This document shows, one piece after another, positions 30,551 to 41,192 of a stretch of 64,000 nt of DNA. The notes below the pieces were generated by a model that saw nothing but the letters and a program-made list of their open reading frames with translations, had not been told where the DNA came from and ran no database searches. The position numbers were made by a program, and so were the translations under genes. Position 1 is the first letter of the stretch. Each line of letters opens with the position of its first letter. Where the stretch lies: assembly GCA_022511345.1 (NCBI GenBank), contig JAFLRR010000001.1, positions 124,001-188,000 of the forward strand, read 5' to 3'. This DNA is from Alistipes sp. Lineage in GTDB: Bacteria > Bacteroidota > Bacteroidia > Bacteroidales > Rikenellaceae.

Positions 30551-31603
30551 ATGAAACACGAAATCGAACAACTGCTCGCCACGGTGGTTCACCCCGAAAC
30601 AGGCACCGACATCGTTTCGGGCGGAATGGTGCAAACGACAGAGGCCTCTGACGGCCGAATAGCCGTCACGCTGCTGTTCGCCAGAGCTCGCGACCCCTTT
30701 GCCGCCAGCATACGACGCAAGGTGCAGTCGCTGCTTGCCTCACGCTGGCCGCAGGCCGAAGTAACTGTCGACATCCGCGAACAGGCCCATCATGCAGAAC
30801 CGGCGCAGATGCCCAGCCAGACAGAAAAGATAGCGCACGTAATAGCTGTCGCCTCGGGCAAGGGCGGCGTAGGCAAGTCGACGGTAACGGCCAACCTGGC
30901 CGTCGCGCTGCGAAACAGAGGATTCAAGGTAGGCATCCTCGACGCCGACATATACGGACCCTCGCAGCCGCAGATGTTCGGTGTGGCCGACTACGCACCC
31001 GAGGCTGTCGAGGACGAGAAGGGCAATGTCTCGATAATACCTGTCGAGAGTCAGGGAATAAAGTTGATGTCGATAGGTTTCTTCGTCAAGCAGACAGATG
31101 CGCTCATGTGGCGCGGAGCCATGGCCGTCAATGCTCTCAAGCAGATGATTCACCAGACCATGTGGGGTGAATTAGACTATCTGCTCACCGATCTTCCGCC
31201 GGGAACCGGCGATATACACCTGTCGATAATACGCGAACTGAAAATCGAGGCTGCCGCCATCGTATCCACGCCGCAGAGCATAGCCGTGGCCGATGTAGTG
31301 CGCGGCGTGGAGATGTTCAGACATCCTCAGGTAAACATCCCTGTTGCAGGCGTAATCGAGAACATGTCCTGGTTCACCCCCGAGGAGCTTCCCAACAACC
31401 GCTATTACATCTTCGGCCGCGGAGGCGCCGAGCGTTATGCTGCCGAAAACGGACTCGAGCTTTTAGGACAGATACCTGTAATACAGTCGGTAAGCGACGG
31501 CACGGAGAGCGGCACGCCTGCCGCAGCCATAGACAGCCGCGTTGCCGAATACTACTTGTCGATAGCCGACAGAATTGTTGAAAAGACGATGAAAAGCTGT
31601 TGA
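30551..31603 (+). CDS. Mrp/NBP35-family iron-sulfur carrier ATPase
   Basis: This 350-residue protein has an N-terminal MIP18/DUF59-like domain (about residues 1-85) and a P-loop ATPase. The deviant Walker A is VIAVASGKGGVGKSTVTANL, followed by GILDADIYGPSQPQMFG and LLTDLPPGTGDIHLS. The family transfers Fe-S clusters to target proteins. The CxxC normally near the C-terminus is absent; the corresponding stretch is NMSWFTPEELPNNRYYIFG, as I expect for many Bacteroidetes versions. It is the last gene before the proposed origin. The ATG at 30527 is possible, but 30551 (MKHEIEQL) fits family starts better. Confidence 0.92.
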   Translation: MKHEIEQLLATVVHPETGTDIVSGGMVQTTEASDGRIAVTLLFARARDPFAASIRRKVQSLLASRWPQAEVTVDIREQAHHAEPAQMPSQTEKIAHVIAVASGKGGVGKSTVTANLAVALRNRGFKVGILDADIYGPSQPQMFGVADYAPEAVEDEKGNVSIIPVESQGIKLMSIGFFVKQTDALMWRGAMAVNALKQMIHQTMWGELDYLLTDLPPGTGDIHLSIIRELKIEAAAIVSTPQSIAVADVVRGVEMFRHPQVNIPVAGVIENMSWFTPEELPNNRYYIFGRGGAERYAAENGLELLGQIPVIQSVSDGTESGTPAAAIDSRVAEYYLSIADRIVEKTMKSC

Positions 31604-32035
31604 AACGCGGTCGTTAAAATGATTAAAATTTTACGGCTGCAGATTTTGCCTTTAGGCGGAAAAATACATACGCGGCGAAAACGAAACTTGCAAATAAAAA
31701 TGTTGTAAAAATATCACCCGGCAAAATAGGCCGAATGATGAACCGATGTCGAAACATTTACGGTGTAGATATGTCGAAAAAGATATTTACAACTGTTTAC
31801 AATTTTTGAAAACGACAGAAAAGCAATTATTTGTAAAGAATGGAAAAGTAACATGTCGATGAAAAGTGTCGATAAATTTATTTCAAAATAGTTATCGACA
31901 TTATCGACAGCGATTATTCTTCTTATTTTTTATAATTTAATTTTAATAAAGAAATAAAAAGAAGAAAAAAGCGTTGTTAAAAACGGAGTCAGTTCGACCC
32001 GCCGGTGCAATGGCTTCAGAAATGGCTGAAGATTT
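31604..32035. other. oriC: Proposed chromosomal replication origin (oriC)
   Basis: This 432-bp stretch has no ORF and is far more AT-rich than the surrounding genes. It contains six copies of a TGTCGAwAA-like nonamer: TGTCGAAAC (31747), TGTCGAAAA (31772), TGTCGATGA (31854), TGTCGATAA (31867), and two adjoining TTATCGACA (31892-31900 and 31901-31909). The last three are the same nonamer on opposite strands, one base away from the E. coli DnaA box TTATCCACA. TTTACAA occurs as a tandem repeat (31786-31802). A nearly pure A/T segment (31920-31970) could be the unwinding element. Plus-strand skew changes from C-rich to G-rich here, and parS-type sites lie 7 kb away. dnaA is not adjacent, which is common in this phylum. 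Confidence 0.68.
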
Positions 32036-36137: not shown

Positions 36138-38180
36138 ATGGATAAACAATTCAAAAGATACCTTGTCACCTCGGCCCTGCCATATGCCAACGGCCCCGTG
36201 CACATAGGCCATCTGGCGGGAGTCTATGTCCCGTCGGACATATATGTACGCTACCTGCGGTTGAAGGGCCGCGACGTGCTGTCGGTCTGCGGCAGCGACG
36301 AACACGGCGTGCCCATCACGCTCAAGGCCCGCAAGGAGGGCGTCACGCCGCAGGATATAGTCGACCGCTACCACGAGATAATAAAGTCGTCGTTCGAGCG
36401 TCTGGGCATGTCGTTCGACATCTACTCGCGAACCACGTCGCCCATGCACAATGTTACGGCGTCGGATTTCTTCCGCAAGCTCTACGACGAGGGCAAGTTC
36501 ATCGAGAAGAGCTCGATGCAGTACTACGACCAGGAGGCGCAGACCTTCCTGGCCGACCGCTACATAGTCGGTACCTGCCCCAAGTGCGGCGCCGAGGGAG
36601 CCTATGGCGACCAGTGCGAGAAGTGCGGCTCGACACTCTCGCCCGACGAGCTGCTGGACCCGCACAGCGCCGTGTCGGGCTCGGTGCCTGTGAAGCGCGA
36701 GACAAAACACTGGTATCTGCCTCTGGACCAGTATGAAGCATTCCTTCGCGAATGGATTCTCGAGGGTCACAAGGAGTGGAAATCCAACGTCTACGGACAG
36801 TGCAAGAGCTGGCTTGACGGAGGTCTCCAGCCGCGAGCCGTGAGCCGCGACCTGGACTGGGGAATACCCGTGCCGGTCGAGGGCGCCGATGGCAAAGTGC
36901 TCTACGTGTGGTTCGACGCGCCGATAGGCTACATTTCGGCCACCAAGGAGCTCACACCCGACTGGGAGAAGTATTGGAAAGACCCCGAGACCAAGTTGGT
37001 GCACTTCATCGGCAAGGACAACATCGTCTTCCACTGCATCGTCTTCCCCTCGATGCTGAAGGCGCACGGCGACTACATACTGCCTGAAAATGTGCCGGCA
37101 AACGAGTTCCTGAACCTCGAGGGCCGCAAAATCTCGACCTCGAAGAACTATGCCGTGTGGCTCCACGAGTATCTCGAGGATTTCCCCGGCAAGGAGGATG
37201 TGCTGCGCTATGTGCTGTGCGCCAATGCACCCGAAACCAAGGACAACGACTTCACGTGGAAGGATTTCCAGAATCGCAACAACAACGAGCTGGTGGCTGT
37301 TTTGGGCAACTTCGTGAACCGTGCACTGGTCCTGACCCAGAAGTACTACGAGGGCCGCGTGCCGGCCTGCGGCGAACTGTCGGACTTCGACCGCGAGACT
37401 ATCGCCGAGCTCTCCGAGATAAAGCCGCGGCTTGAGGCAGCCATCGAGAGCTACCGCTTCCGCGAGGCTCTCAAGGAGGCTATGAACTATGCCCGCATAG
37501 GCAACAAGTATCTGGCCGACAGCGAGCCGTGGAAGGTCGTCAAGACCGACCCTGCACGTGTCGAGACCATACTCAACATAGCGTTGCAGATTACAGCCGA
37601 CATAGCCGTCGCCGTGGAGCCTTTCATGCCCTTCACTTCGGCCAAGATACTTCGCATGCTCAATATCGGCAAGTTCGACTGGGAGCGCCTCGGCGCCCTC
37701 GATCTGGTGCCTGCCGGACATGTTATTGCGCAGCCCGAGCTGCTCTTCGAGAAAATCGACGATGCCGCCATCGACAAGCAGCTCGACAAGCTGCAGAAAG
37801 CTACCGAGGCTCTGCTGGCTGCTGAAGCTGCTCAACATATTGAACCACAGAAAGATAGCGTGTCGTTTGACGACTTCAGCCGCATGGATATCCGCATCTC
37901 GACCGTGCTGGCTGCCGAGCGGGTTCCCAAGACCAAGAAGCTGCTGAAGCTGACGGTCGATACGGGTATCGACACGCGCGAGATAGTTTCGGGTATTGCC
38001 GAATACTTCACTCCCGAGGAGCTGGTAGGCAAACAGGTTCCGGTGCTGGTGAATCTCGAGCCCCGCGATTTGAAGGGTATCACCTCGCGCGGAATGATTC
38101 TCATGGCCGAGGATGCCGACGGCAAGCTGCGACTGCTGCAGCCGGGCGAAAAGGTTGCGAGCGGCTCGATTGTAGGATAA
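36138..38180 (+). CDS. metG: Methionyl-tRNA synthetase
   Basis: This 680-residue class I synthetase charges tRNA-Met and initiator tRNA. The HIGH motif is in [21 protein letters not shown] zinc knuckle with two CxxC pairs ([18 protein letters not shown], about residues 146-163) marks the MetG1 type. The KMSKS-like loop is [13 protein letters not shown]. The C-terminal 110 residues form a Trbp111-like tRNA-binding domain ([40 protein letters not shown]). ilvE follows after 33 nt, so the two are probably co-transcribed. Confidence 0.98.
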
Positions 38181-38213: not shown

Positions 38214-39230
38214 ATGGTTGACATCGATTGGGGTGCGCTTGGATTCGACTATTACAAGACGGATTACAACGTGCGTTACCATTTTGCCGACGGTAAATGG
38301 AGTGAAATGGAGATTAGCGACAGTGAGTATATGACAATGCACATGTCGTCGCTCTGTCTTCACTACGGCATCGAACTCTTCGAGGGCCTGAAGGCCTTTC
38401 GCGGTGTCGATGGCAAGGTCCGTCTGTTCCGTGCCGAGGCCAATGCCGAGCGCATGCGCTCTTCGGCCCGCCGACTCTGCCTGCCGGTGCCTACTGTAGA
38501 GATGTTTATGGCAGCCTGCGAGAAGGTCGTGCAGCTCAACAGCCGTTTCATACCTCCCTATGAGACAGGAGCTTCGCTCTATATTCGTCCGGTGATGTTC
38601 GGCACGACCGTGGGTCTTGGCGTGCGGGCTTCGAAGGAGGCGCTGATGATAGTCTATGCCGCACCCGTGGGTCCTTACTTCAAGGGCGGAATGCAGACCA
38701 TAAAGGTTGCTATCGACCGCGAACAGGACCGCGCTGCTCCACGTGGAACAGGCGACGTGAAGGTGGGCGGAAACTACGCCTCGTCGCTCATGTCGGGCCT
38801 TCATGCCCATGACAAGGGTTTCTCGAATGTACTCTATCTCGACCCTGCCACCCACAGCAAAATCGAGGAGTGCGGTGCAGCCAATTTCTTCGGCATAAAG
38901 AACAATACCTATGTGACGCCTGCGTCGGGTTCGATTCTGCCGTCTATTACGAATATGTCGCTGCGCCAGTTGGCCGTTGATATCGGCATGAATGTCGAGC
39001 AGCGCGATGTTCCGGTCGAGGAGCTCGCCACATTCGAGGAGTGCGGCGCCTGCGGCACGGCAGCAGTCATATCGCCCATATCCGAGATTTACGACTTGGA
39101 GCGCGACAAGTCTTACTCCTATGGGACCGAAGTCGGAAAGACCTGTCTGAAACTCTATAATGCCCTCCAGGATATACAGTACGGCCGCGCAGAGGACCGC
39201 CACGGCTGGACCAGGATAATCGAACTGTGA
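38214..39230 (+). CDS. ilvE: Branched-chain amino acid aminotransferase
   Basis: This 338-residue fold-type IV PLP enzyme interconverts Leu, Ile and Val with their 2-oxo acids. Landmarks are LHYGIELFEGLKAFRGVDGK, VRLFRAEANAERMRSSARR, GVRASKEALMIVYAAPVGPY and GGNYASSLMSGLHAHDKGFS, then SKIEECGAANFFGIKNN. The length and ECGACGTAAVISPI near the end fit the long BCAT group (about 340-360 residues). It lies behind metG. A near-perfect parS site is embedded in the coding sequence at 38735-38750, and a perfect one directly follows the stop codon. Confidence 0.96.
   Translation: MVDIDWGALGFDYYKTDYNVRYHFADGKWSEMEISDSEYMTMHMSSLCLHYGIELFEGLKAFRGVDGKVRLFRAEANAERMRSSARRLCLPVPTVEMFMAACEKVVQLNSRFIPPYETGASLYIRPVMFGTTVGLGVRASKEALMIVYAAPVGPYFKGGMQTIKVAIDREQDRAAPRGTGDVKVGGNYASSLMSGLHAHDKGFSNVLYLDPATHSKIEECGAANFFGIKNNTYVTPASGSILPSITNMSLRQLAVDIGMNVEQRDVPVEELATFEECGACGTAAVISPISEIYDLERDKSYSYGTEVGKTCLKLYNALQDIQYGRAEDRHGWTRIIEL
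38735..38750. other. parS-like ParB-binding site inside ilvE (one mismatch)
   Basis: TGCTCCACGTGGAACA matches the parS pattern TGTTnCACGTGnAACA at all but the third position. It lies 496 bp before the perfect site and within coding sequence. Confidence 0.6.
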
Positions 39231-39246
39231 TGTTCCACGTGGAACA
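39231..39246. other. parS: parS centromere-like site
   Basis: TGTTCCACGTGGAACA is a perfect 16-bp palindrome and an exact match to the chromosomal parS pattern TGTTnCACGTGnAACA bound by ParB/Spo0J. It starts at the base after the ilvE stop and touches the terminator stem. parS sites cluster near oriC in most bacteria. Confidence 0.85.
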
Positions 39247-39290
39247 AACAGCGAGGCGAAGAACTTGACTTGTTCTTCGCCTCGCTGTTT
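39246..39290. terminator. Bidirectional terminator between ilvE and mnmG
   Basis: A perfect 19-bp stem (AAACAGCGAGGCGAAGAAC with its complement) around a 7-nt loop, with a TTTATT tract on the plus side. It ends ilvE and probably also the minus-strand mnmG operon. Confidence 0.85.
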
Positions 39291-39308: not shown

Positions 39309-41192
39309 CTATCGGCCGAATCGGACGAGCAAAACGTTTATGTCTGCCGGCGAAACGCCCGGAATTCGCGATGCCTGGCCTATGGTAGCCGGTCTGATTC
39401 GACTCAATTTCTGCCGTGCCTCGATGGTCAGGGCGTTCATAGCGGTGTAATCTATATTGTCGGGTATGCGTATATCTTCCAGACGGCGCAGTTTCTGCGC
39501 AATCAGTTTCTCGCGTTCGATATAACCACGATACTTTATTTGTATCTCGGCCTCCTCTATCGCTTCGGCGTCGGCTTCGATTTCGGCTATGAATTTTGCC
39601 AGTTTGGGCAGCACTTTAGCCAATCCCGCGATGGTCACTCCGTTGCGCATTAATATGTCCGAAGCCTTGCGGCCCTGCTCCATTGCCTCGGAATCGACCG
39701 ATTTCAGATAGTCGTCAATTTGGCCTGCCTTGATGCTTATGCGGCGCAGCTCGGAAATAAGCGATTCTACAATCGTTTTCTTTTTTTCGAATTCCGCAGC
39801 TCTTTTATATGAAATCAATCCGATTTCGATTCCTTTGGGTGTAAGTCTCAAATCGGCATTGTCCTGTCGCAGCAATATTCGGTATTCGGCCCGCGAGGTG
39901 AACATGCGATATGGTTCGTCAACGCCCTTGGTCACCAGGTCGTCGATCAGCACGCCTATGTATGCCTCGTCGCGCCGCAGTACGAACGATTCACGGCCCG
40001 CGAGCTTGAGATGGGCGTTGATTCCGGCCATAAGTCCCTGAGCAGCAGCCTCTTCATAGCCGGTAGTGCCGTTTATCTGGCCGGCGAACCACAGATTGTC
40101 CACGAGCTTGGTCTCGAGGGTGTGCTGGAGCTGTGTGGGCGGGAAATAGTCATATTCGACGGCATATCCAGGGCGGAACATGTGCACATCCTCCAGTCCG
40201 CGGATTTTGCGCAGCGCACTGAGCTGTATGTGCCACGGCAGCGACGACGAGAAGCCGTTGAGATAGTATTCGTTGGTTGTGCGGCCCTCGGGTTCGAGGA
40301 AGAGCTGGTGGCGCTCCTTGTCTGCGAAGGTGCGCAGCTTGTCCTCGATGCTGGGGCAGTAGCGGGGGCCGATGCCCGTTATCGCGCCGTTGAAAAGAGG
40401 CGAGTCGGCAAAACCCTCGCGCAGCGTGTCGTGCACCTCTGGCGAGGTGTATATGATAAAGCAAGGCAGCTGTTTTTCAACAGGTTGCGTATCGCTCGAG
40501 AACGAGAATTTCGACGGGTTGCAGTCTCCCTCCTGCACCTCCAGCTCCTCGAAATTGATGGTGCGTGCGTCGAGTCTTGCGGGGGTGCCGGTCTTCATGC
40601 GGTCGCTGACGAATCCCGCGGCTTTGAGCGACTCGGTTATGCCATGCGAGGCTGTGTCGGCGGCGCGTCCGCCCTCTATCGAGGCCTGGCCGCAGAACAT
40701 CCTGCCGCCGAGGAACGTGCCGCAGGTGAGAATGACGGCCCGGGCTTCGAACTCGACGCCGAGGCGCGTGCGTATGCCGCGCACGCTTTTGCGGCCCTCG
40801 TGCTCGCTGAATAGCACCTCCGCCGCTTCGTCCTGCCAGATGTAGAGGTTCGAAGTGTTCTCGAGCGTGCGGCGCCACAGCTCGCTGAAGCGCGTCTTGT
40901 CGCACTGCGCGCGCGGACTCCACATGGCGGCGCCTTTCGAGCGGTTGAGCATGCGGAACTGCACTGCCGTGAGGTCGGTGATGCGCCCCGTCTGGCCGCC
41001 AAGAGCATCTATCTCTCTGACAATCTGACCCTTTGCAACTCCTCCAATGGCCGGGTTGCACGACATCGATGCAATCTTCGACATGTCCATCGTCAGCAGC
41101 AGCGTGCGGTTTCCCAGGCGTGCGGCGGCCGAGGCGGCCTCGCAGCCTGCGTGGCCGGCACCGACCACTATTATATCATACGAAAGTTTCAT
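39309..41192 (-). CDS. mnmG: tRNA uridine-5-carboxymethylaminomethyl modification enzyme MnmG (GidA)
   Basis: This 627-residue FAD protein, with MnmE, puts a carboxymethylaminomethyl group on wobble uridine 34. The dinucleotide fold is [22 protein letters not shown]; GidA motifs are [39 protein letters not shown] and [18 protein letters not shown]. The C-terminal helical domain ends with [21 protein letters not shown] start at 41192, where ATGA overlaps the ybeY stop; the track ORF adds 128 residues from another frame. It is last in the pheS-to-mnmG operon. gidA lies near oriC in many bacteria. Confidence 0.97.

Follow-up and report, generated by a model that had tools for sequence, protein, structure and literature searches.

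Two 16-bp palindromes lie close together in the 64,000-nucleotide stretch of Alistipes DNA analysed here (the window), one inside ilvE and the other in the gap between ilvE and mnmG, and the question they raise is whether they form the centromere of the chromosome and, if so, how part of a centromere can be accommodated in the coding sequence of a metabolic enzyme. Our answer is that they are very probably chromosomal parS sites of this Bacteroidales species, an identification supported by their sequence, their uniqueness in the genome, their clustering at the GC-skew switch, the presence of ParA and ParB, their conservation and the codon selection evident at one of them. ParB binding and spreading, and ParA-driven movement, would follow by analogy with the ParABS literature. 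The features concerned are collected in Table 1.

Table 1. Features of the window around the two palindromes and the candidate origin.
Feature	Coordinates	Strand	Remarks
Candidate replication origin	31604-32035		AT-rich 432-bp gap between mrp/apbC and nadA, 67% A+T
metG, methionyl-tRNA synthetase	36138-38180	+	Neighbour upstream of ilvE
ilvE, branched-chain amino acid aminotransferase	38214-39230	+	Stop codon 39228-39230; contains putative parS site 1
Putative parS site 1, TGCTCCACGTGGAACA	38735-38750		Within ilvE, from the third base of codon 174 to the end of codon 179; 1 mismatch to consensus
Putative parS site 2, TGTTCCACGTGGAACA	39231-39246		First base after ilvE stop; exact consensus match and perfect palindrome
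Intrinsic terminator hairpin	39247-39289		Arms 39247-39264 and 39272-39289; between ilvE and mnmG, adjoins parS site 2
mnmG (gidA), tRNA modification enzyme	39309-41180	-	Convergent with ilvE; start approximate

Measured against the 16-bp parS consensus, TGTTNCACGTGNAACA, site 2 is exact and site 1 departs from it at a single base; the sites are spaced 496 bp apart, so that both fall inside one 512-bp stretch. Their coordinates and sequences, and the position of the perfect site between the ilvE stop codon and a strong terminator (about -41 kcal/mol over a 76-nt stretch, z -8.5), were confirmed as the initial annotation had given them. The window contains no other match to the consensus with up to two mismatches, while shuffled versions of it contained 0.10 such matches on average and none of 100 shuffles reached two. 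A search of the whole genome (1,948,353 bp in 21 contigs, 99% complete), allowing up to one mismatch, returned the same two sites and no others, against none for a reversed-pattern control; one further match with two mismatches, at C4:71806, is at chance level, because the same control gives eight. Base composition predicts, per genome, 0.004 exact sites and 0.19 with one mismatch; the expectation for an exact site paired with a one-mismatch site inside 512 bp is about 4e-7. The even scatter round the genome that, according to the initial annotation, would have refuted its reading was not seen, both sites being confined to the one short stretch.

The genome also encodes the proteins that would be expected to read such sites. 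A single protein, on contig C12, matches the NCBIfam ParB model (parB_part) above cut-off; it carries the N-terminal (CTPase) domain PF02195 (119.8 bits) and the helix-turn-helix domain PF17762 (121 bits), both above cut-off, and the motifs GERRWRA and ENIQRQDLN, and its best PDB match is a ParB structure (4.8e-50). Directly upstream of parB lies the gene for a Soj-type ParA ATPase with the motif KGGVGKTTT. In two congeners, the parB reading frames (G172:C9:74383-75246 and G061:C95:4178-5044) are interrupted by a stop codon in frame, TAG and TAA respectively, which may be an assembly error or real decay.

Noc is a relative of ParB, and the palindromes might accordingly be nucleoid-occlusion sites of the Noc type (NBS) rather than parS: the NBS of Bacillus are palindromes of equal length, are also read by a ParB-family helix-turn-helix domain, and differ from parS at two positions per half, positions 1 and 6 in the numbering of PMC7383237. 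At both of these positions, however, the two sites have the parS bases and not those of NBS, and the genome has two sites where NBS would be many and scattered. The parB_part model finds one ParB-family protein, and at the two residues by which parS readers differ from Noc this protein has R173 and G201 (Caulobacter numbering), not the Q173 and R201 of Noc (PMC7383237). R173 and G201 are conserved in 70/70 aligned ParB sequences of the genus, and the Noc residues appear in none of these. We regard a Noc-type identity as almost certainly wrong and retain the identification as parS.

In the chromosomal ParABS systems of Bacillus subtilis, Caulobacter and others, the same consensus occurs in few copies near the origin, together with cognate ParA and ParB, and the present sites, within 512 bp of each other and about 7 kb from the skew switch, conform to that pattern. 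The cumulative GC skew of the window reaches its minimum at 30,818, next to the gap between mrp and nadA, which also holds the AT-richest 400 bp of the window (at 31,601) and three copies (31867, 31892 and 31901) of TTATCGACA, a DnaA-box variant one base from TTATCCACA. Canonical DnaA boxes, TTATNCACA, were considered as an origin marker for the window and rejected, since the origin there is marked by TTATCGACA and not by them.

Because the genome is in 21 contigs, the position of the sites relative to the skew of the whole chromosome was read from two near-complete congeners with long contigs, G152 and G013, in which the skew was sampled. In G152 (one contig, 3.38 Mb) the sampled skew is negative to about 1.15 Mb and then positive to 2.9 Mb, with a local minimum at 1,153,807, the mrp-nadA gap next to it at 1,154.2 kb and parS at 1,160.8 and 1,161.4 kb; in G013 (a contig of 3.79 Mb) the local minimum is at 1,200,647 and parS at 1,193.0-1,193.6 kb. 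The switch thus falls at the mrp-nadA gap, 6-7 kb from parS, in both genomes. The earlier proposal of a segregation centre about 7 kb from the origin is supported by the skew minimum, by the recurrence of the same gap in the two congeners and by the presence of parA and parB.

Neither dnaA nor parAB lies there: dnaA is about 1.4 Mb from parS in G152, where it is located towards the terminus, and 1.55 Mb in G013, and parB is 0.77 and 0.84 Mb away, respectively, a separation of parAB from its sites that sets this system apart from the chromosomal ParABS systems named above. With dnaA and parB distant and the skew switch close, the origin is here marked by parS rather than by dnaA or parAB. This arrangement agrees with Hi-C work on gut bacteria, among them Bacteroides caecimuris and Muribaculum intestinale, members of the same phylum, for which the excerpted text of the study reports parS clustered at the GC-skew origin and Bacteroidota origins that do not always carry dnaA (PMC10197239). 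The evidence in that excerpt is Hi-C, and codon-embedded sites and an mnmG neighbour are not described in it (PMC10197239).

The sites are not peculiar to one species. In a sample of 180 genomes of the genus, 173 have sites with up to one mismatch, against 0-3 control matches each, and all 70 of those at least 90% complete and at most 5% contaminated have them. The comparison covered 111 distinct ilvE loci, the majority of which were retrieved by the coordinates of ilvE and thus blind to the sites; when two mismatches are allowed, every locus, including all those fetched by ilvE coordinates alone, has one site or more. The ilvE-mnmG gap holds one to four sites, at drifting positions, in 109/111 loci, and the copy inside ilvE is present in 72, always at exactly offset 521. 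Many members of a divergent clade that has no internal copy carry parS in the metG-ilvE gap instead. Within the half-site, seven of the eight positions are at least 91% one base and the outermost base is 81%.

Several congeners have one-sided core variants of parS, TGTTCCACGGGGAACA or TGTTCCACGAGGAACA, often as every intergenic copy; they sit in the ilvE-mnmG gaps of G008, G137 and G179 (L011, L100, L102) and of G021, G028 and G131 (L024, L030, L157). A changed ParB specificity was considered as their cause and rejected, since R173 and G201 are unaltered in those species, so that there has been no Noc-like switch. A match to TGCTCCACGTGGAACA also occurs in another congener, at G017:C76:5195-5210 (L020), where no ilvE was found.

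Beyond the genus, exact parS sites were found in 255/392 genomes of a sample of the order and in 227/297 of a sample of the phylum, with almost no control matches. The gene mnmG adjoins the exact site in 70 of the 79 Bacteroidota loci that were fetched (L255-L284, L305-L353), and these 70 come from 19 families in the order and from others elsewhere in the phylum; as the 79 are a non-random sample, the tie to mnmG should be taken as a strong tendency, not as a rate. Many of the sites in the fetched loci begin directly after the mnmG stop codon. We found no description of parS with mnmG or gidA in the literature searched, outside which the main parS survey lies.

These distributions bear on the possibility that the palindromes are operators for some other DNA-binding protein, one that regulates ilvE or mnmG and happens to read a palindrome centred on CACGTG. 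Such a core is common among regulators, and the sites do adjoin genes. It is the full 16-mer that is conserved, however, rather than the core alone, and the sites occupy the interior of ilvE, the space between convergent stop codons, either flank of mnmG and the metG-ilvE gap, a set of placements that fits no single promoter. Moreover, the sites track mnmG and the skew switch, not ilvE, which has none where mnmG was not found adjacent. An operator function is therefore highly improbable.

The copy of the site inside ilvE calls for separate consideration, since it might be that the intergenic site alone is parS and that the internal one is a by-product of the conserved peptide AAPRGTG. Much of its sequence is indeed fixed by the peptide, it carries a mismatch, and it is absent from 39/111 loci, so that it is dispensable where other copies persist. 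What the peptide does not fix is the choice of codons. Site 1 is written in GCT, GCT, CCA, CGT, GGA and ACA, encoding AAPRGT, and of the 229 five-codon windows of ilvE, those over codons 174-180 take ranks 1-3 in how far they depart from codon usage, a departure dominated by the rare codons CCA, GGA and ACA (frequencies in the ilvE set of the genus of 0.14, 0.15 and 0.15). When all the synonymous strings for AAPRGT were enumerated, the best attainable was one mismatch to parS, and a single string, the one in use, reaches it, with a probability of 2.3e-6 under the codon usage of the window. At the remaining mismatch, the parS base would change Ala175 to Val. The mismatch of site 1 is thus forced by the protein sequence of IlvE, and the site is the best parS that the conserved peptide AAPRGT permits.

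Comparison among species points the same way. In congeners that keep the peptide and have no site, between about three and all six of the codons are different, and outgroup ilvE genes with the identical AAPRGTG peptide, with no mnmG found adjacent, use other codons and have no site. On the ilvE tree, for the rows with the APRGTG motif, presence of the internal site needs seven changes, which fits an old site lost several times. That six codon choices, three of them rare, should have been retained together makes an origin as a by-product very unlikely, and the codon evidence indicates that site 1 is kept in ilvE as a parS site by selection on synonymous codons at the level of the DNA. The initial annotation was supported in reading the ilvE-side pair as parS near the origin, but it had missed this synonymous selection, the forced nature of the mismatch and the conservation beside mnmG beyond the genus.

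We hold with high confidence to the explanation as a whole, in which a pair of parS sites near the origin, one of them selected through its codons, is acted upon by ParB and ParA. The single ParB of the genome would load on both sites, site 2 being an unconstrained perfect palindrome in a gap between convergent genes; once loaded it would clamp and then slide onto the flanking ilvE-mnmG DNA, and ParA would move the ParB-bound locus, making the region of the origin, about 7 kb distant, the first to be segregated.

The models for the Smc hinge, ScpA and ScpB (PF06470, PF02616 and PF04079) gave no match in the 99% complete genome, another difference from the chromosomal ParABS systems, and the usual downstream partner of ParB-parS is thus either missing or unrecognised; as the hinge model also gave no match in a Caulobacter control and MksBEF lay outside the search, this is an absence of recognisable Smc-ScpAB only. 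In the excerpted text of the Hi-C study, no known condensin was found in Bacteroides caecimuris or Muribaculum intestinale (PMC10197239).

A ParABS parS is a known kind of element. To this the present locus adds a site embedded in codons, a conserved mnmG neighbourhood and an origin from which dnaA and parAB are displaced. A parS within a coding gene also has a precedent, in the spo0J gene of B. subtilis; the fixing of a site in ilvE by codon choice is a difference from the established systems. A broader proposal, to which we give about even credence, is that the Bacteroidota centromere has its anchor at mnmG, apart from dnaA and parAB, and functions without Smc-ScpAB, and that in the Alistipes lineage it is partly written into the ilvE coding sequence, so that ParB binding would dictate which codons a metabolic enzyme uses.

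With no recognisable Smc, ScpA or ScpB, these organisms allow a direct test of what acts after ParB-parS. For a large group of gut bacteria in which dnaA is a poor marker of the origin, the likely segregation centre and origin region have been located. The locus is, in addition, a clean natural example of a DNA-binding site that would impose synonymous codon choice, in which the many species serve as replicates and the several losses as controls.
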